64,000 bases of DNA from Bolinopsis microptera (Eukaryota > Ctenophora > Tentaculata > Lobata > Bolinopsidae), in NCBI RefSeq assembly GCF_026151205.1, contig NC_087072.1:4636084-4700083 (forward strand), given 5' to 3'. Numbering within the stretch: position 1 is the first letter of the stretch; every line of letters begins with the position of its first letter. This document shows, one piece after another, positions 40,040-49,708 of the stretch. The position numbers were made by a program, and so were the translations under genes. The notes beneath the pieces were generated by a model. The model did not search any database, had not been told where the DNA came from, and saw only the letters and a list, made by a program, of their open reading frames with translations.

Positions 40040-40046
40040 TCACATA

Positions 40047-40165
40047 GGGGGGGTCCACGTTAAAAAAAGTTAAAAAAGTTAAACTAATTAATGTTAAATT
40101 TCAAAATTCAGGCTTAGAAAGTTTAACTTTTTTAACATAAATTCAAATTTGGGTTGAAATTGTAA
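40047..40165 (+). repeat. Left terminal inverted repeat of the 9.65 kb element
   Basis: Seven G, then 'tccac', then a 78-bp segment (40059-40136) bounded by 'gttaaaaaaagttaaa' and 'tttaacttttttaac', then 'ataaatt'. That inner segment matches 49611-49686 in the same orientation, while the outer bases match in inverted orientation. Confidence 0.7.
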
Positions 40166-40247
40166 GACTAGACTAGTTTACTTTTAGGTCATGCGTTGGT
40201 ATTTTTGTTCATTAGTCATTACATGTAGGAATCTAGGAATGCCCATG

Positions 40248-40934
40248 TATAGAAAACCGAGTTCTCTTGGTATTTAGTGTATGCTAGTCAAGCTCTAGTC
40301 ACGAAGCACGAACGGCAGGGCGTACCGTATAGTAGAAATGAAACGAGTAAACTAAAATGGATAATTAATTAAATGGAAAAGTAATACAAAGTGAACGTCA
40401 ACAGATAAAAACCTCCAAGTGTTCGCTCTAATCAATTGACGTGATTATAGATCACTCGACGTGTCTAATCACAGCTGGTAGTGCTCAGTAAGACTGGCTA
40501 CCGTCAATTTGAATCCCTTAAAATGATTAAGGGGCAACTAAGAAGTGAGCTCTCCACATCCGGCTCTTCGGGTATACTCTCAAAACTCGTCACGCCACAC
40601 TGCGTGACGGCACAACGCATCTGCTTGTACCACGTGACACGCCGTCTCGCCAATGAGCACTCCACTAGCAGTCACGCTGTGGTCGCGAGGACCAACCACA
40701 GGTCTGGCTGTTAGTCAGGTGCAAAGTGAGCGGACGGCTCGTTACAGACAGTTAGTCTGACAGTAGTTCTGCCAGCCAACCGACTTACACTCAAAATGTG
40801 TAACTCCCAAATACGAACATATAAAAACATTGGTTAATATATACCCGGAAACACATACTAAATTCTACGTCCCGTAAACGTTATACTAAAACTAAGATAT
40901 CCTAAAAGATATCTCTAAATACCATATTACAACA
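40248..40934 (-). repeat. 3' LTR of the gypsy element (687 bp)
   Basis: Nearly identical to 43356-44042. Differences noticed are 'aaaaccgag' against 'aaaacggag' and 'ccttaaaatg' against 'ccttataatg'. The 77-codon frame inside both LTRs follows from their identity and is not evidence of a gene. Confidence 0.95.
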
Positions 40935-41520
40935 TCTCTACCCAAAAATTTTTTTCGAATATTTTAAAACAATAAAATAATCGCCCTTTTCAAAATTTAA
41001 ATTTCAATGCTCCAACGCATCAAAAGTCCAAAACTTAAAAATAAGACAAGTCTCAAAATATAATACACGGCCCTAACCCTGTGCATTAAATTCAAATCAT
41101 CAAAATCCTAAAGTTAAAACTGAAATTGACTTCCACAAATCTTTCAAAACTTTCCAAAACTTTCAAATACTTCCCTTTTGCACCAAGTTGTAGAGTCTTT
41201 GGTGTTGAGTCTTCATCATTAGATAGAGATGTATCGAATCTCTAAATCTTCTTTGACAAGCAAACAAAGAAGTCAAAATAAATTCGAAGATTTCTACGTT
41301 TCCACCACTAAAGCAGCCCTGAGCGAGTCGTGTTGCGAGTAAAGATTCTAATATCCCTATCAGTACTGTTCTGAAAGATAACACGTGTTATACCTAAGTA
41401 AGGTACGGTTCCACTGCTAAATACTAAGTGGAAAGTCTAGCTAAGTGAGTAAGACTATACTGTTCTGAAACTAGATTCCAAAAGTAAGTGTACTTCCCTA
41501 TCCGGGCATCTCCTCGTCTT

Positions 41521-42831
41521 CTACTGGTTGAAGAGTTTTATAAGATCCGTAACTAGTCTAACGTTGTATCCTAGACGATCAGGTTGTCTCCGTTCCTCAG
41601 GTCTCCTAGTGTTATATCTGCGCTCCTCCCTCGGAGGGCTCTCATGTCTTCTTAGATCCACAGGAGAAAGCGATCCTGTTGTGTCAATGTCGTGCCCCAC
41701 TGTATCATACGACATAGAACTGCTATGACCCATCGTTCCTTCACCAACAACCGGACTCGATGATCTTCTAGCGGCCGATCTCTCTCTAGCTGGAGTGAAG
41801 AATTCTGCAGAATTATCAACTGTTTCCACACTATCGCCTGAAGGAATGTTATGTGTGAGAGGTGTTACAGTACTAAAACTAGGATTAGTAGAATTCAGAT
41901 CTAGTTGAGCAGGTCTATTAACAGCCCTAGGAGTTGAACTAAAACTAGGTTGCTTGTAAATGCTAGCTGCACCATCCTTCTCCAGACGAAACTTCTTCGG
42001 ATGAACCTCTCTTCTCCTCACAACTGGTGCTCTTCTCAGTTGAAAATCTGTCTCCTCTTCACTATTACTATCGGAATAATCTACAAATCGCTCCGATGAG
42101 TCCGTCTTTAACTCAGCTCCACTGCTCTTAGCCTTATTGTAAATGTATGCCTGAGGTGGCTTACTTGCTGTACACAAGACCCCTCTCTCTAGAGAGCTTA
42201 CATCTCTAGTAACCGCTGAAACATTTTCCACCGTATCAACTGCTCCCGCAACTACTGATGCCTTCTCTGTAGTATCAGCCTGAGTAAGACTAAAATTGCA
42301 ATGGTGGCTATCAACTTCAGGCGTAATCTGAACAACGTTTACTGTGCTATGGTCATCACTAAACTTCTCATCAAACAATAACCCCGGAATCATACTATCC
42401 TCAACACTCAACTCATTGCAAGATTCCTCGATCATATTACTGCAATCATCCTTAACCACTGTCTCGCTGCTAACCGGTACCTGCAGCCTCTTAAACAGTA
42501 TCGGGTGTTTACATCTATAATGTTCACGTGTCACCCGGTTTACTCCGTCTAAGGCAGCTTCAAGACTAAAAGTGCAACTGCTACTAATGCTCGCTACATT
42601 TTCTCGAGATTTACCATAACCCTGGTATTTATAGCGGTTAAATCCACCACACTTCTGGTTTCTCTTCCCCGAGATATGCTTCGTGGTAAAAGTACAGTTA
42701 GCAAGCTCCTGAAGCTTCCTGATGACAGAAGACGACACTTTCGAAAATCTCATTACAATCTCATAAATACGTGTGTTTTTGACCGCGGGTGACCTCCTCT
42801 TAAATCTAGGGCCACCCTTTAGAAGTTTAAA
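41521..42831 (-). CDS. Gypsy pol remnant (RNase H end joined to a C-terminal tail), read by -1 frameshift
   Basis: The minus frame is open from the slippery site at 42825-42831 to the stop at 41521. It contains 'LQELANCTFTTKHISGKRN', the end of a Ty3/gypsy RNase H region, but the usual 'ADALSR' continuation and the integrase are gone. The rest is a Ser/Thr-rich, partly acidic linker with 'SDSNSEEETDFQLRRAPVVR' and an Arg-rich tail, similar in character to the variable region after gypsy integrases. From the first internal Met (42753) it is 410 residues. With protease, RT and integrase missing it cannot be enzymatically active. The frame is nonetheless undamaged, so it may be translated as a gag fusion. 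Confidence 0.7.
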   Translation of the reverse strand, partial: FKLLKGGPRFKRRSPAVKNTRIYEIVMRFSKVSSSVIRKLQELANCTFTTKHISGKRNQKCGGFNRYKYQGYGKSRENVASISSSCTFSLEAALDGVNRVTREHYRCKHPILFKRLQVPVSSETVVKDDCSNMIEESCNELSVEDSMIPGLLFDEKFSDDHSTVNVVQITPEVDSHHCNFSLTQADTTEKASVVAGAVDTVENVSAVTRDVSSLERGVLCTASKPPQAYIYNKAKSSGAELKTDSSERFVDYSDSNSEEETDFQLRRAPVVRRREVHPKKFRLEKDGAASIYKQPSFSSTPRAVNRPAQLDLNSTNPSFSTVTPLTHNIPSGDSVETVDNSAEFFTPARERSAARRSSSPVVGEGTMGHSSSMSYDTVGHDIDTTGSLSPVDLRRHESPPREERRYNTRRPEERRQPDRLGYNVRLVTDLIKLFNQ

Positions 42832-43028
42832 GGCACCTGACTGTTAGGTCTATACACTCTGTTCCAACTCTGTTGGCCATAACCACTCTGATATGAAGAC
42901 CCTCTGTCTTGATATCTACCTCTATTACCAGCTAATCTGCTCGGACAGTTCCTCTGAAAATGTCCAATATCACCACACTCCCAACAACCTTCCAACTGAT
43001 GGCGAACGTTACGATCATCATTTCTCAT
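42819..43028 (-). CDS. Gypsy gag nucleocapsid fragment with one CCHC zinc knuckle
   Basis: The 69-residue frame contains 'CWECGDIGHFQRNC', an exact C-x2-C-x4-H-x4-C zinc knuckle that binds element RNA for packaging. A Gly/Arg/Tyr/Ser-rich tail follows. The capsid part of gag upstream is not recognisable in 43029-43355. The frame stops at 42819, nine bases after a slippery heptamer, so readthrough into the pol frame is by -1 frameshifting and not by stop suppression. Confidence 0.8.
   Translation of the reverse strand: MRNDDRNVRHQLEGCWECGDIGHFQRNCPSRLAGNRGRYQDRGSSYQSGYGQQSWNRVYRPNSQVPLNF
42825..42831 (-). promoter_or_regulatory. Programmed -1 ribosomal frameshift site, slippery heptamer U UUA AAC
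   Basis: On the minus strand the zero-frame codons are cct tta aac ttc taa, so the heptamer T TTA AAC sits in the correct X XXY YYZ register just before the gag stop. After slipping back one base, the pol frame reads on without a stop to 41521. I have not established a downstream pseudoknot. Confidence 0.75.
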
Positions 43029-43355
43029 GGTAGCTTAATCTCACAAATACGAGCTATCTATCTAGATTTAACTGTACTGCGAAGCTTACAAACGGCTGTA
43101 AAACTGGGTGCTCGTTAAAACGATAGCACTGAACTGGAATATACAGGTACCACAAAATGCGTAGCAACACTTACCAATTCTAGTAGGAAGTACTCAAGAT
43201 CTAGAACAACCTCCAACGTAATTCTTCTGAACTGCGACGTACACCGAACTTAGCTTAGCAAATGACAACGTTAGGATCTAATCGAAACTATACTGAATAT
43301 AGGTGATAATAGAAGGATCACGAGCAAAATAGCAACACTAAAAGTGGCCTCCAGA
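43029..43355 (-). other. Leader region of the gypsy element with primer-binding site
   Basis: Between the 5' LTR and the gag fragment. The minus strand begins TC then 'tggaggccacttttagtg', a TGG-initial sequence as expected for pairing with a tRNA CCA 3' end. The capsid coding region is missing here, consistent with an internal deletion. Confidence 0.6.
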
Positions 43356-44042
43356 TATAGAAAACGGAGTTCTCTTGGTATTTAGTGTATGCTAGTCAAG
43401 CTCTAGTCACGAAGCACGAACGGCAGGGCGTACCGTATAGTAGAAATGAAACGAGTAAACTAAAATGGATAATTAATTAAATGGAAAAGTAATACAAAGT
43501 GAACGTCAACAGATAAAAACCTCCAAGTGTTCGCTCTAATCAATTGACGTGATTATAGATCACTCGACGTGTCTAATCACAGCTGGTAGTGCTCAGTAAG
43601 ACTGGCTACCGTCAATTTGAATCCCTTATAATGATTAAGGGGCAACTAAGAAGTGAGCTCTCCACATCCGGCTCTTCGGGTATACTCTCAAAACTCGTCA
43701 CGCCACACTGCGTGACGGCACAACGCATCTGCTTGTACCACGTGACACGCCGTCTCGCCAATGAGCACTCCACTAGCAGTCACGCTGTGGTCGCGAGGAC
43801 CAACCACAGGTCTGGCTGTTAGTCAGGTGCAAAGTGAGCGGACGGCTCGTTACAGACAGTTAGTCTGACAGTAGTTCTGCCAGCCAACCGACTTACACTC
43901 AAAATGTGTAACTCCCAAATACGAACATATAAAAACATTGGTTAATATATACCCGGAAACACATACTAAATTCTACGTCCCGTAAACGTTATACTAAAAC
44001 TAAGATATCCTAAAAGATATCTCTAAATACCATATTACAACA
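43356..44042 (-). repeat. 5' LTR of the gypsy element (687 bp)
   Basis: Nearly identical to 40248-40934. It carries the element's presumed promoter because it lies upstream of gag on the minus strand. Confidence 0.95.
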
Positions 44043-44247
44043 CATGACAAGAGTAAAACAGTCATATAACATAGGTACAACCGATAAATAATTGATACAT
44101 TTGATCATTACAATAATAAATTATAATTCATAGAAATATAAACAGCTGATTCATAAATAATTTATAAAAAAACAACAGATTCCATTCACAGTGTCAACAC
44201 TGAAAATAGGGCTATGATAATCTATATCATTAAATCTAGTGATACTA

Positions 44248-45051
44248 CCTTACTCGGGATTATTATGACCGGGATAAAGTGGTGGGTTTAGGGTAATTTC
44301 GCCATATTTTTCCCGAACCACATTTTCACCGGTCGTTAATAAACCCGCCTACTCAGCTTTTAGGGTTCCCAAGGGGTATGGGTGCTCATATTTTAATCGT
44401 TGTCTTATATTCACTAAAGAAGACTATTGGGACACTTGTTGTAGGTTTTTCGACTTCATTTGGCTAAAATTGCAAAAAATTCACCTTTTTGCCCAATTCT
44501 TGTCATATATCCTTATTGTCAAATTTGATTTAAATAGGCCAATTTTTAATTTCTTAGGTATTGACTATCTCTACATAATGAAATAGGACTCAAAGTAAAA
44601 GTAACAGTTAAATTAAAACTTGAATTTATTAAAACTGATGAAAGGGATGATCCAGATGAAGATAACGAAGATGATTACAACTTATTGGAAGACTAAACAG
44701 CTCTCCCTTTATCTTAATATCGATCTGGTTGTTGCGCTCCAAATGTTAAAAATTATTTTCCATCTAGTTTGATTAACCACGAGTCATTATTTCTGTCTAC
44801 TTTCAACAATTATTGATAATTCGACTTGTTTCACAAGTTTTAGCAATGCGAAAATTTCTAAAGTTCTTCCTTATCTCTAATAAGGAAATTTACATCTGAG
44901 ACAAAATTTTTGAATCTAAAATTGAAAGGTTGGACACCGGTAAAATGGCGACCGGGAAAATGTGGTGGGTTTTGAGCAATTTCGCCATATTTTTCCCGAA
45001 CCATATTTTAACCGGTCGTTAATAAACCCGTCGTAATAATCCCGAGTAAGG
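44248..45051. mobile_element. 804-bp TA-flanked MITE (Tc1/mariner-like)
   Basis: The ends are an exact 18-bp inverted repeat 'ccttactcgggattatta' (44248-44265 and 45034-45051), each abutted by TA, the Tc1/mariner target duplication. Subterminal direct repeats containing 'aatttcgccatatttt' lie at 44295-44310 and 44978-44993. A short acidic frame ending at 44696 ('DERDDPDEDNEDDYNLLED') could be the tail of a lost transposase, which is speculative. Confidence 0.88.
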
Positions 45052-45082
45052 TAATCGTAATGAATTAATAACTGAATAAAAT

Positions 45083-45330
45083 TCTAATGATGTTTCATAA
45101 AAGTTATCGCTTAAACAAAGAGTCACTGTGTCACGATATTATATTACAAAATTTAAAATAGTGTCTAATGATATTTCATAAAAGTTATCGCTCAAACAAT
45201 GAGTCAATTTGTCACGATATTATATTACAAAGTTAAAAAGAGTCACGTCTAATGATGTTTCAATGTAAAAGTTATCGCTCAAACAATTTGTCAATATATT
45301 ATATTACAAAATTAAAAAACAGTGTCAATG
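45083..45330. repeat. Three tandem copies of an ~82-bp repeat
   Basis: The unit contains 'taatgatgtttcat', 'aaaagttatcgct', 'aaacaa' and 'gtcacgatattatattacaa' and occurs three times with small indels. It lies just downstream of the minus-strand terminal exon at 45450. Confidence 0.75.
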
Positions 45331-45449
45331 AAGTAAAAATTTTACAGGTGTTACTGTAATAACGTAAATAAAAGAACTTGAGGTTCTAATTTGAAGTTAC
45401 TTATATCATTTAACCTGAATATAAAAGTCTATCATTAAAATAATTTTCA

Positions 45450-45640
45450 CTATAGTGCAGCCGAGTTCTTATCGTCGTTCATATATTTTAGAACTTCACT
45501 TGTAATACGATTAACATCATACGGTTGAGGAATCTTCATTATATCACGACATACATCATTATTCAGTAATGAAAATAGATGTTCCTCAATAATCTCTTCC
45601 TCGGACATTCCTGATGTCCTAAGACTAGGGAGGCTACCTC
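45450..45640 (-). CDS. Probable terminal exon of a gene of unknown function
   Basis: The frame ends at 45450 and reads 'MSEEEIIEEHLFSLLNND', 'RDIMKIPQPYDVNRI' and 'SEVLKYMNDDKN'. It has a balanced, helix-compatible composition unlike the surrounding AT-rich DNA, and AG acceptors stand just before it. It resembles the segment 'DDEELVHRSLNEIKNN...VPEVLKQ' at 47711-47995, on the same strand beyond the inserted LINE. Both have acidic EE, a predicted helix and 'VLK' at similar spacing. I infer it is the last exon of the gene at 47711-49257, separated by the LINE. The function is not recognised. Confidence 0.45.
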
Positions 45641-47700
45641 TTATGGCCAAACAACTGGCTAAAAAAGCACAAATCCTTCAGTACTGATCCTGAGATCGCT
45701 GAACTGTCACTTGAACGCAAGCAGCTGATGATTGCGAATATGCAGAACAAATTCCCGACCAACAGGAAGCATGTCAAGACCAACATCAACCAGCTAAGAC
45801 GTAAGATTACAAAGAGACTCAGAGATATCAACAACCGCAGTGCTGACACACTCGTCGAAGAGGTAAACAACACAGACGACGCCCGGAGATACTTTGGAGC
45901 CTCTAAGATACTCGCCAAAGGATATGTTAGACCAGCTCTAACCGTCCACAACCCTGCTGGGAATATCGCAGGTACTAATGAGGAGAAAGCGAGGATTATT
46001 AAGGAGTACTTTGAAGCTGAGTTCAACGACGCTGATGAGCCTACCCTTCCTGCCTTCCTTGACCCCCCATCTAGCCTTAACAGTCCCATCACCGTTGCAG
46101 AGATAGAGAGAGCCATCAGTAAACTCAAGTCTGGTAAAGCAGTGGGTATTGATAAAGTTCCTGGCGAGGTCATGAAAGCCCTGAACAACCCCCTCCTTCA
46201 TGAAGAGCTGGCTAATGTGTTCAACGAGTCTTTCGAGAAAAACATTCACATTGAAGCAATAGGAGCAGGCATCCTCACACCACTGGCTAAGCCTGGTAAA
46301 ACTCGTGGCCCAGTTAAGTCGATACGACCATTGACCCTGCTGAATGTTTCTAGAAAGATCCTGTCACTGATAGTGCTAAACAGAATAGAGAGAGCTGTGG
46401 ACAACTTCACCGGACCGTTCCAGGAGCTGTGCTGACCTAGTTTGGGCACAGAGCATGCTCATATCTGTGGTAATGAAGAAGGAGTTTGAATGGAACAAAG
46501 TGAGTATCGACATGTCAGCTGCCTTCAATACCATCCGCAGAGGTACAACAATTAGACTACTAGAAGCTGCAGGATGCAGGATGCTCCAGAGACGACCTGA
46601 GGCTTGTACAATACCTCATGGCTAACACCACTCTAGTAGTCAGAGTGTGTTCTACTGACTCAGAGATGTTCTCTTTCAACATAGCTTAGGAGCCTCCCAA
46701 GGAGACAGCACAGCTGGTAAATTGTTTACCCTCAATCTAGCTGGAGCTGTAGTGCACATAAGAGCAGTCCTCCCCTCAAGACCCAACCCTCCGATAGCCG
46801 ATAACCACATGCCTCTTGAGTCCGGCTATTCAGACGATTTAGAGGAGATTGGTGAAGATATGGAGGAGTTACAGGATATCTTTCAGATCTCCAAGAATAT
46901 TCTCAGTGAATGGAGTCTCTTTGTCATTGACACAAAGACAAAGTTTACCAGAGTGTATTTAGAAGAAGTTGGTGCCTGTGACAAGTGGGATAATGAACTA
47001 AGAGGAAGAGAGGAGTGGAGAAACGAGACAATTCTTGGTACTAAGCTTGGATCAGAGCAGGATGTTACTAATAGAATAAATAAATCTAACTCTGCCTTCT
47101 GGTCATTTGACAAGCTGTGGTGCCAGGGATCAGAGAGGAGTCAGATAACTGAGAAGAGAAAGATCAAACTCTACGACTCACTAGTAGTATCAGTGCTCCT
47201 GTACAACTGCTGCTGCTGGGCCGTACCTCAGCATGTTCTAGAGTCTGTAGATGTTCTTCAGAGGAAGCACCTCAAGCGCATCCTACACATCTATTGGCCT
47301 AGCTCAATATCTAACAAGGCCCTCTACGCTCGTACCCAGACCAGGCCCCTTTCCGAGAGAGTGGAAAAGGCACGGTGGACAATGCTAGGTCATGTTCTAC
47401 GCAGTGAAAACGACACACCTGCCTACCAGTCTCTGTTATTTGCTACACTAGGATGTCAAACACTAAAGGGACGAGTGGGTAGACACAGGACTAATTTGTA
47501 TGATATTATTGTGAAAAAGGACCTATTTAAGAGACAAATTTATTTTAAAAATGAAGATGATTTTACCAACTTAGTGAACTTAGCAAGAGATAGAGTAGGA
47601 TGGAGGAGTTTATTTACTTTGAGACATATTGAACGAATGAGTCTTCGTAAGCGTAAATAGGCCAGCACTTTGCTGAGCCTCTTTAGGTGCTCTTTTGTTT
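45640..47700 (+). mobile_element. 5'-truncated LINE (endonuclease-lacking RT) inserted on the plus strand
   Basis: The copy covers most of a LINE ORF2 RT and C-terminal region in broken frames, followed by a short 3' UTR ('aggccagcactttgctgagc' onward). It has no endonuclease. The right boundary near 47700 and left near 45640 are judged from where LINE-like coding stops; target duplications were not found. It separates the two halves of the minus-strand cargo gene. Confidence 0.7.
45650..47660 (+). pseudogene. LINE reverse transcriptase, frameshifted, catalytic box altered
   Basis: The first frame (to 46435) carries 'ERAISKLKSGKAVGIDKVPG', 'LTPLAKPGK' and 'IRPLTLLNVSRKILS', RT motifs 1-2. 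After frame changes, 'KVSIDMSAAFNTIRR' (motif A) and 'LGASQGDSTAGKLFTL' (motif B) follow. The last frame (46722-47660) has 'LESGYSDDLEEIGE' where YADD is expected, so the active-site Ala is Ser. It then has the C-terminal 'EKARWTMLGHVLR' and 'RVGRHRTNLYDII'. At least two frameshifts and one in-frame stop rule out function. Its origin is a LINE clade distinct from the CR1-like copy at 1785-5697. Confidence 0.8.
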
Positions 47701-47710
47701 ATAGATGTTA

Positions 47711-49257
47711 TTATATTATATAACTGGCTAAATGGCTCTTTAGATTATGAGAGCATCTATGTTTTGAAACAGAACTTCGATCTGGTTGTTTCACTTTCCC
47801 ACACCCCAATAGGTTCTTTACCTGCTTTAAGACTTCAGGGACTTCATTTTCAATATCTTCCGCGATATCAATTACATTTAGATATTTCTTTGAATCCTGA
47901 TTATTTTTTATTTCATTCAACGATCTATGCACAAGTTCCTCATCGTCACAACTTTTCAAATTGCTTGGACCTAGTGATCTAGTTAACTCTAGCATTACCG
48001 CAATGTGGGAAATAAAGGCAAAAGAATGCTTCCCAGTTCCCTGTCACATTTGCATGGACATAATTAGTAGATAGCTTTCCTTGTATTTTTGGAATAGATT
48101 GAATAGTTTCCGATGACAAGATTGGTTTCACTCTAGCTATTGGGTATGGCTGATGCACAGTATTCTGCACCACATCATCCGTACTCTTTGTTCCATTCTG
48201 ACATTCCGGGGTAGGTAAAATACTCATCATCCGACGACGTCTTTTCTTAGATTTTAGTCTTAATACCCGCTCCATGGGTCGCACAATTGATAACGTAGGA
48301 CACCTGGATTTTTTCCTCCGAAAATATTGTATATATTCTGTAGGCAAGCTTCCTCTAAAGAACACCCAAGTCTGAATAAAACCCGTTGAATTGTTTTGGC
48401 CTTGATAATCTGGCCAGGTACCATGTCGTTACACTTCCACAATTCAATTTCAAAATTCGTCCTGACCATGCATCTATCTTTAATCGTTTCGGCATCGAGC
48501 GCCTTTCTTCCGGATTTCTCCTTACAAAGTTTGTTTTTCGGCGTGGAAGTGCCATCTTCTGTGGAGAATCTTGTAGAAAGTTTGTTTAAAACAGTCTCTT
48601 TCTTCGCAATCACAGGCTTATCACCTTTTCCATCGTGTACTGGCAGTCTAATTGTACTCAGAGAACTTGTTGGAGGAGTATTTCTAGAGTTCAATTTGTC
48701 CCGATTTCCCTGCTGATTCTCATTCTTGATTGCAGTTCCACCTTCAATGAGTCGTGTAGACAACTTGTTAAGTGCTGTTTCCTTCTTTGAATTTAACACT
48801 TTCTTGCTGCTGTTTATCTTATCAACATCAATTGGTCGTCCAATTGTGAATTTAGAATTGTCTACTGTGGGAGTTCTCGTGGTTAAATTATCAGTGTTAG
48901 CCCGCAAATGCTCCTTCTTCTTCAGACCCGTCGATGAAGATTTATCCATAATCGTCAATTTGCTTTGCACCGTCGGTTTCTTAATCTTTGGAATCCTAAA
49001 AGTAGGGACAGCTCTCCTCTTGAATGAGTTGCTTGTTATTATCGCAGTAGTGATAACATCAGCAGATGATTCGTCTTCAGAATCATATTGAGTTCTAGGT
49101 TTTGATGAATCAGCAGCCCTTTTTGAAGTGTTGACAACAACTGATACGTCCTCAGTAGATGGTTCGGGTACAGGGATTACAGCTGGAGGAAGCTCCGGAG
49201 TATCAATACCTGATGATGTGTCCTCAGTAGATGGTTCGGGTACAGGGATTACAGCTA
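47711..49257 (-). CDS. Spliced gene of unknown function, basic Ser/Thr-rich protein (cargo of the 9.65 kb element)
   Basis: The minus frame from about 49257 to 48260 is open for over 300 codons, though stops close the same frame upstream. It starts with a duplicated 'PAVIPVPEPSTED' unit. An acidic patch 'QYDSEDESSADVI' and 'RRAVPTFRIPKIKKP' follow, then two copies of a 'KKETxLNKLSTR' module, then 'DRCMVRTNFEIELWKC' and a leucine-rich end. A second frame (47979-48365) has an NLS-like 'RLKSKKRRRRMMSILPTPE'. A third (47711-47995) has 'DDEELVHRSLNEIKNN' and a good donor after 'VLKQ' (CAG|GTAAAG). The frames must be joined by introns or frameshifts that I cannot resolve. Composition suggests a nuclear protein. 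No transposase or known domain is recognised. Confidence 0.45.
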
Positions 49258-49589
49258 CAGGAACCCTTCAAGCGAATGAGCGACTCTCCTGATGCCTTCG
49301 CTAAATTGCAACGTAAACATCTGTCGTATGTGAGACTTTCCATAACCCTTCCGCACTTACACCGCTAAGCCATATTCTTTTTTCGTATAATATGAATGAT
49401 TATATTAGTAAATTATACAATTATGTGTATATAATATAGATACAAGGTGTTTTTTTTGTAGAGTTATCAAATCGATTACAACTACAGAAAACAATTGCAA
49501 GAGCGAGGTACTACTAGTACTAAAGGTCAACACTCATAATTGAGTTTAATTTGGGTAATTATGTTAAAATTTGAACCGATTAGTCAGCC
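49258..49589. other. Right interior of the 9.65 kb element, no supported gene
   Basis: Upstream of the minus-strand frame, which is closed by a stop just past 49263. AT-rich, with no inverted repeat until the terminal repeat begins near 49590. The promoter or first exon of the cargo gene would have to lie here. Confidence 0.4.
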
Positions 49590-49701
49590 AAAATCTGATT
49601 TTTAATTTATGTTAAAAAAGTTAAAAAAGTTAAAGTAATTAATGTTAAATTCCAAAATCTCGATCTTAGAATTTAACTTTTTTAACGTGGACCCCCCCCC
49701 C
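49590..49701 (-). repeat. Right terminal inverted repeat of the 9.65 kb element
   Basis: Ends in 'aacgtgg', then A and ten C, directly followed by the 7-bp duplication 'tcacata'. The segment 49611-49686 is in direct orientation to 40059-40136, flipped relative to the outer repeat. Confidence 0.7.
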
Positions 49702-49708
49702 TCACATA

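Follow-up and report, generated by a model that had tools for sequence, protein, structure and literature searches.

The insertion and the family to which it belongs

A 64,000-nucleotide stretch of the genome of the ctenophore Bolinopsis microptera (assembly GCF_026151205.1, contig NC_087072.1, positions 4,636,084 to 4,700,083 of the forward strand; hereafter the window) was analyzed for a large mobile element located at positions 40047-49701. This segment is a real, single and well-bounded insertion belonging to a family of transposons with terminal inverted repeats (TIRs). The 7-bp duplication TCACATA abuts it on both sides, the left end reads G7-TCCACGTTAAAAAAAG from 40047, and the right end reads CTTTTTTAACGTGGA-C10 with its last base at 49701, the two ends being mutually inverted. 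Among the 34 full-length left-end matches in copies outside the window, 30 have the first base of the G run as their start (query position 8, which is 40047) and the remaining four begin at query positions 3-6, so the left boundary has support beyond the duplication. A single insertion with inverted ends and abutting TCACATA had been proposed by an earlier, sequence-only reading of the window, and both the exact ends and the family described below confirm it. The terminal repeat of about 115 bp given in that reading was, however, only partly right, as the inversion is limited to a short tip (the G run and about 20 bp); the rest is a roughly 75-bp, partly self-complementary block which lies in the same (direct) orientation at both ends.

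The genome-wide counts were taken on the 264.65-Mb assembly, whose contigs are labelled C1, C2, C3 and so on. The tip 15-mer GGGGTCCACGTTAAA has 36+34 occurrences against 0+1 for its reversed control. The 68 exact matches of the 19-mer tip form 33 inward pairs and two further elements having one altered end, giving 35 elements; of the two, C5:16221058 is truncated at its right end and C11:8925370 has a partner tip with 2 mismatches. The search for further paired inverted ends, which the sequence-only reading had suggested, was thus productive, and the short solo tip repeats that it named as a sign against a single element were not found among the exact tip pairs, of which the closest is 2933 bp apart (L029). 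Two unpaired tips (C7:2210918 and C9:5551568) are possible relatives with a different other end. Sequence was available for 24 of the 35 elements whole and for most of one more (L015, tips L046-L047), and 10 are known by matches or tips only.

Target duplications were tabulated for 24 elements, 22 of those read whole and two known by their tips. The duplication is of 6 bp in 13 and 7 bp in 9 of them (22/24); of the other two rows, G-rich sequence surrounds one element and the second shows a degenerate C run. Wherever a repeat is present (23 rows) it ends in A, in 18 of them in TA, and the duplicated targets have the pattern T....A in common. L010, unparsed in the table, has TGACTA in both flanks, and the duplication AGTATA of L027 was read by eye; L030 was left out for its truncated right end, and the duplication of L023 is ambiguous. 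The G run varies between copies from 7 to 23 on the left in the table (25 in L010) and from 5 to 17 on the right, for which slippage is assumed as the plain reading and end tailing is an alternative. Inverted ends with a target duplication are therefore present at many loci, as in TIR DNA transposons, and the family is a dispersed one whose copies leave 6-7-bp duplications. In the common architecture the cargo is framed by two end cassettes, of about 280 bp on the left and about 310 bp on the right, and its gene is read inward from the right one.

Two cargo genes at fixed borders

A basic Ser/Thr-rich gene is carried by 25 of the 35 elements, and a SAM-domain gene stands in its place in the other 10 with the same end cassettes, both assigned by coordinates. 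The left border TTTGATCATTA is found in all seven copies shown, three with the Ser/Thr cargo (L029, L032, L009) and four with the SAM cargo (L033, L026, L014, L011), and the right border CATATAATA(G/C)GAAA is likewise common to both. After it the Ser/Thr type reads AAAGAAT-ATG-GCT-TGG with the ATG 7 nt further in (L029, L032, L009), and the SAM type reads GAGC-ATG with the ATG 4 nt further in (L014, L011, L033), followed by TCG-GCC directly in L014 and L011 and after a few extra bases in L033; the ATG has been lost in L031, and L016 was left out of this comparison as it has a different sequence at that place. The start of either cargo gene thus lies a few bases inside the right cassette, both are read in the same direction, and the right cassette is presumed to act as promoter and leader of the cargo gene.

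The SAM frame of L026 matches SAM_2 (E 8.4e-6), and the PDB matches of the protein confirm the SAM domain and nothing more. Four pieces of C3:13647059-13648367 match the SAM unit with an identity of 87-92%. At two of the joints neighbouring pieces run on without a break in the element (query 527/527 and 612/610) and stand 166 and 292 bp apart at C3; the third C3 gap gives no clean joint (229 bp at C3, query 245 to 305). From a 3-base overlap at one joint a splice donor was predicted after GCAGA, and this one string was searched with up to 3 mismatches. It gave 33 matches against 24 for the reversed control, a count which alone means little; the sole match with 1 mismatch lies at the predicted C3 place and reads GCAGA|GTAAGT, where all 10 SAM elements have GCAGA|GTATT. 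As the C3 gaps fall at continuous joints of the element, with a GTAAGT donor, the SAM unit is read as a spliced copy: judged from these alignments, the SAM cargo is an intronless copy, derived from spliced RNA, of the gene on C3. The SAM element at C9:16630453 shows 58-65% protein identity in frameshifted pieces and 95% DNA identity over the unit, and on account of the latter it is taken as the same capture with frameshifts.

The two frames listed in the sequence-only reading for the Ser/Thr cargo (47711-49257 and 45450-45640) do exist but are not separate, being parts of one minus-strand gene divided by a long interspersed nuclear element (LINE) here called RT1. The LINE-free element L032 has an uninterrupted minus-strand frame of 580 codons uniting both, and the LINE interrupts the gene in 16 of the 19 copies read. 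Its start is predicted in a small first exon, ATGGCTTGGCGGT, with GTAAGT behind it and TAG|CTG 106-113 bp further on; this pattern is present in 18 of the 19 copies, with a stop in codon 3 in the window copy, and L010 is without the donor string. An unspliced alternative would be a cysteine-rich frame of at most 49 aa (MAWRCKCG...DRCLRCN), so that either may be the true start of the gene. The characterization of the cargo as an unknown basic Ser/Thr-rich protein was borne out. The profile search proposed along with it gave no Pfam family for the frame; the best PDB match has E 0.32, and no relative was seen in a viral-contig scan. The short cysteine-rich frame matched in Pfam only DUF7130 (E 0.04, below its cut-off).

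None of the 72 genome matches of the Ser/Thr protein at E <= 0.001 lies outside the 25 elements, so no parental copy of it is found in the assembly. Variants of the open reading frame in 19 copies comprise 105 non-synonymous, 30 synonymous and 5 stop changes (expected 99.9, 34.6 and 5.6), which gives an omega of about 1.2, the two shifted control frames giving 0.77 and 0.87; the corresponding counts for the LINE frame in 16 copies are 91, 28 and 6 (expected 87.7, 32.9 and 4.4). Only 17 variants are shared (14 non-synonymous, 2 synonymous, 1 stop), and it is these that speak to source lineages. By these counts the Ser/Thr frame drifts among the copies with no constraint detectable, and the LINE frame does the same.

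Nested insertions and map of the window copy

The features of the window copy are collected in Table 1. Three later insertions had been claimed in it. Two of them hold: only the LTR (long terminal repeat) retrotransposon and the 804-bp element resembling a miniature inverted-repeat transposable element (MITE) are private to this copy, and L029 has both empty sites. The third, the RT1 LINE, is shared by 16 of the 19 copies of its type. The LTRs are 99.7% identical, by which the retrotransposon is young, and its 440-codon minus-strand frame had no match in a Pfam search.

Table 1. Features of the element copy in the window (positions of the window; TSD, target-site duplication)
Feature	Position	Strand	Remark
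Left TSD	40040..40046	.	TCACATA
Left end cassette, first part	40047..40247	+	TIR tip and partly self-complementary block, family-wide
LTR retrotransposon	40248..44042	-	Private; TSD CATG; strand assigned by its minus frames
LTRs	40248-40934 and 43356-44042		687 bp each
Left end cassette, remainder	44047..44110	+	Runs to about the cargo junction TTTGATCATTA
MITE-like element	44248..45051	.	Private; 804 bp; TIR CCTTACTCGGGATTATTA; TSD TA
Tandem repeats	45083..45310	.	About 81 bp, within the Ser/Thr cargo unit; also in L009
Ser/Thr-rich gene, 3' coding part	45453..45663	-	About aa 508-579; severed by the LINE
LINE with reverse transcriptase	45664..47721	+	5'-truncated
Duplication of the LINE	45653-45663 and 47722-47732		AACTGGCTAAA
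Ser/Thr-rich gene, main exon	47733..49254	-	Frameshifted in the window copy
Predicted intron	49255..49360	-	106 bp, GTAAGT...CTGTAG; prediction only
Predicted exon 1	49361..49373	-	ATGGCTTAGCGGT; stop at codon 3 in the window copy; prediction
Right end cassette	49380..49701	-	TIR tip and partly self-complementary block, common to both cargo types
Right TSD	49702..49708	.	TCACATA

The RT1 piece in the window measures 2,058 bp and is flanked by an 11-bp duplication. Its presence in the 16 copies was established by the 3' junction in 14 and by reverse transcriptase (RT) matches in L010 and L012; it is missing, with the empty site present, from L029, L030 and L032. It is a passenger older than most copies of its type, which inserted into an ancestral element and was multiplied along with it. 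Relatives outside the elements have 96.9% identity to the window piece and 98.6% to the L009 piece, and one of them (L038) has a 1,056-aa endonuclease-RT frame, by which the window piece is seen to be 5'-truncated. With stand-alone endonuclease and RT relatives, 5' truncation and a duplication of its own, the segment is a non-LTR retrotransposon. Other LINE RTs in the elements are RT2 (L011, L026, L033), RT3 (L014) and RT4 (L031), and further LINE-like frames are an RNase H frame in L032 and an RT frame in L030. A 1,161-codon endonuclease-RT LINE frame without a stop is inserted in a further family member (L023:1471-4953). Outside relatives were searched for RT1 and RT2, those of RT2 having 94-96% identity. 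The first-look RT candidates in the genome numbered 5,972 (RT1) and 5,713 (RT2), of which 68 and 106 were scored, and it is because these candidates number in the thousands that the LINEs are taken as passengers.

Another non-autonomous TIR transposon is nested in the LINE part of L027 (L027:1827-3789). It has an 8-bp duplication TTAAGGAG, ends AGCGATCGTCAT / ATGACAACCATCGCT, and two frames, one with P2RX7_C (E 7e-18) and one with a THAP-like domain that narrowly misses the cut-off (22.1 bits, E 2.6e-4); it seems to represent a further TIR family that carries genes. L011 adjoins a frame with a rhodopsin-family receptor domain.

Search for the moving enzyme

The 24 whole elements and part of one more yielded 256 stop-to-stop frames with a length of 90 aa or more, of which 53 representatives were compared with Pfam. 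The domains found were RT, endonuclease, RNase H, SAM, THAP and P2RX7_C, together with two doubtful matches to repeats or a receptor (E up to 0.01), and no transposase catalytic domain was among them, in agreement with the earlier statement that no transposase is visible. An Rfam scan of the window, L012, L031 and L033 gave no family at the gathering score.

A tip-like repeat, GGGGGTGCACGATAAA, was tried as an autonomous relative. It has 166+143 matches (0+0 in the control), and among about 100 places listed there is no close inward pair, for which it was rejected; this repeat tip looks one-ended, for example at C3:18525171 and C1:3948988. Elements of the hAT or P superfamily have duplications of about 8 bp and family-typical tips; the duplications here are of 6-7 bp with T....A ends, a pattern that resembles hAT targets.

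Proposed history and alternative explanations

Taken together, we consider it highly probable that this is a non-autonomous TIR transposon family which is moved in trans by a transposase from elsewhere, and in which the cargo was swapped, probably via capture of a spliced-mRNA copy. The direct evidence for it lies in the TIRs with their 6-7-bp duplications, the 35 dispersed elements, the two cargos at the same borders, the LINE passengers with relatives outside, and the spliced-copy origin of the SAM unit. The history could have begun with an excision or a break inside an element; the gap would then have been closed with reverse-transcribed spliced mRNA of the SAM gene, the old interior being replaced, and the element with its new cargo would have been multiplied in trans. 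The RT could have been supplied by LINEs, which are common in the genome. An extension which we offer only tentatively is that of a swappable expression cassette, in which the right end would provide promoter and leader while the coding interior is exchanged at the start codon by RNA-templated repair and is spread in trans.

Several points weigh against this history. The transposase scan covers 24 of the 35 elements whole and one partly, by Pfam families and frames of at least 90 aa, and the unread interiors may hold such a gene. The THAP domain occurs in some transposases and one was found, yet it lies within the separate TIR transposon nested in L027. The donor test covers one of the four presumed splice sites of the SAM parent locus, and the C3 locus is known from its matches alone. 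Finished copies would be expected to drift even if the gene were a genuine one of the element, and selection on past source copies is possible. In several Ser/Thr copies a frame of 514-580 codons is still open, and a gene that the element formerly expressed would fit with the predicted intron and with the start next to the right cassette.

Among the alternatives, the Ser/Thr-rich protein may be a mobility or accessory factor of the family that has gone unrecognised: its matches are confined to the elements with no relative in Pfam, PDB or the viral contigs, and in L032 its frame is open for 580 codons with a plausible intron and an alternative cysteine-rich start frame. The gene is, however, missing from 10 of the 35 elements, which have spread with the same ends, it is split by a LINE in 16 of 19 copies, and no purifying selection is seen, by which this idea, raised in the sequence-only reading, is weakened and becomes improbable. 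The Ser/Thr gene is probably not the mobility gene and counts as the second passenger; it may be a relic that once belonged to the element, or it may have been captured from a parent which was not found in the assembly. The suggestion of captured host sequence holds for the sister group with the SAM cargo, the one cargo for which a parent locus is identified. That an RT belongs to the element and drives its movement could be argued from the four different LINE RTs inside the elements, with RT frames also in L023 and L030, but it is contradicted by the empty LINE site and the stand-alone LINEs. RT1 and RT2 were rejected as the element's own mobility gene, both for their close relatives outside and RT1 also for its truncation, its own duplication and its empty sites; the intact short element L029 is without any RT frame, and the chance of this explanation is negligible.

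Regarding the SAM cargo, ordinary LINE-driven retroposition into a small element, in place of replacement by break repair, would suit an intronless copy in a genome where LINEs are abundant. Against it, no poly(A)/T run is seen at the left joint of the SAM unit and no flanking duplication by eye, and the SAM and Ser/Thr units lie at the same borders, so that simple insertion would need both at the same site; we regard it as rather unlikely. The direction could also be reversed, the C3 locus being a decayed copy of the element with later insertions and not the parent gene, as its identity of 87-92% in pieces would permit. The genome-wide searches for tips and ends list no match at the C3 locus, the GTAAGT donor stands at the predicted joint and two gaps fall at contiguous element positions, which makes the reversed direction very improbable.

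Relation to known systems and value of the finding

The nearest known kind are the Pack-TIRs and Pack-MULEs, which are alike in being TIR transposons with non-transposon sequence, multiplied with target duplications (PMC8277862). According to the part of the animal survey available to us, 370 Pack-TIRs were found in 100 genomes, of which four, a share given as 1.4%, were multicopy; the method discarded copies of multi-exon genes that lack the introns (PMC8277862). The family described here differs from those surveyed, as far as that part describes them, in its 35 elements, in a SAM cargo which is an intronless copy and in a Ser/Thr cargo without a parent found (PMC8277862). A parental copy not flanked by a transposon is seen for the SAM cargo only, the C3 locus being known from its matches. 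The SAM cargo falls outside the definition used in that survey, where a cargo is not an intronless copy of a multi-exon gene, and since such copies were discarded the SAM members would be filtered out of it (PMC8277862, same part).

In mouse zygotes, as reported in the available part of the source, pieces of spliced mRNA without introns or poly(A) were captured at double-strand breaks made by Cas9 (PMC4516963). The SAM capture is alike in having neither introns nor poly(A); the break here would lie within a transposon and is inferred only (PMC4516963). Turmoil-1 of Caenorhabditis elegans is likewise an animal element with host-derived protein-coding sequence, in which, from the portion of the source at hand, the pieces lie within the inverted repeats, whereas here the cargo lies between two end cassettes (PMC2572040). 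The Dada superfamily is similar in its 6-7-bp target duplications, but in the section of the source seen no TIRs were found for it and those of its insertions that could be defined lie in small RNA genes; it was rejected as the home of this family, in which TIRs are present and the targets are T....A and not an RNA gene (PMC3706591).

Our literature search recognised no description of this family, or of an intronless host gene that a TIR transposon had multiplied, though the family may stand in Repbase or Dfam. The family is ordinary in being non-autonomous and LINE-ridden, and unusual in having two cargos at fixed borders and an RNA-derived gene. It provides a multicopy case with a spliced-copy cargo, a surviving parent gene and two cargos at fixed borders, which would make the RNA-derived capture of genes by DNA transposons directly testable. 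It also suggests, as far as the survey method is described in the part available, that such RNA-derived captures may be filtered out of surveys.

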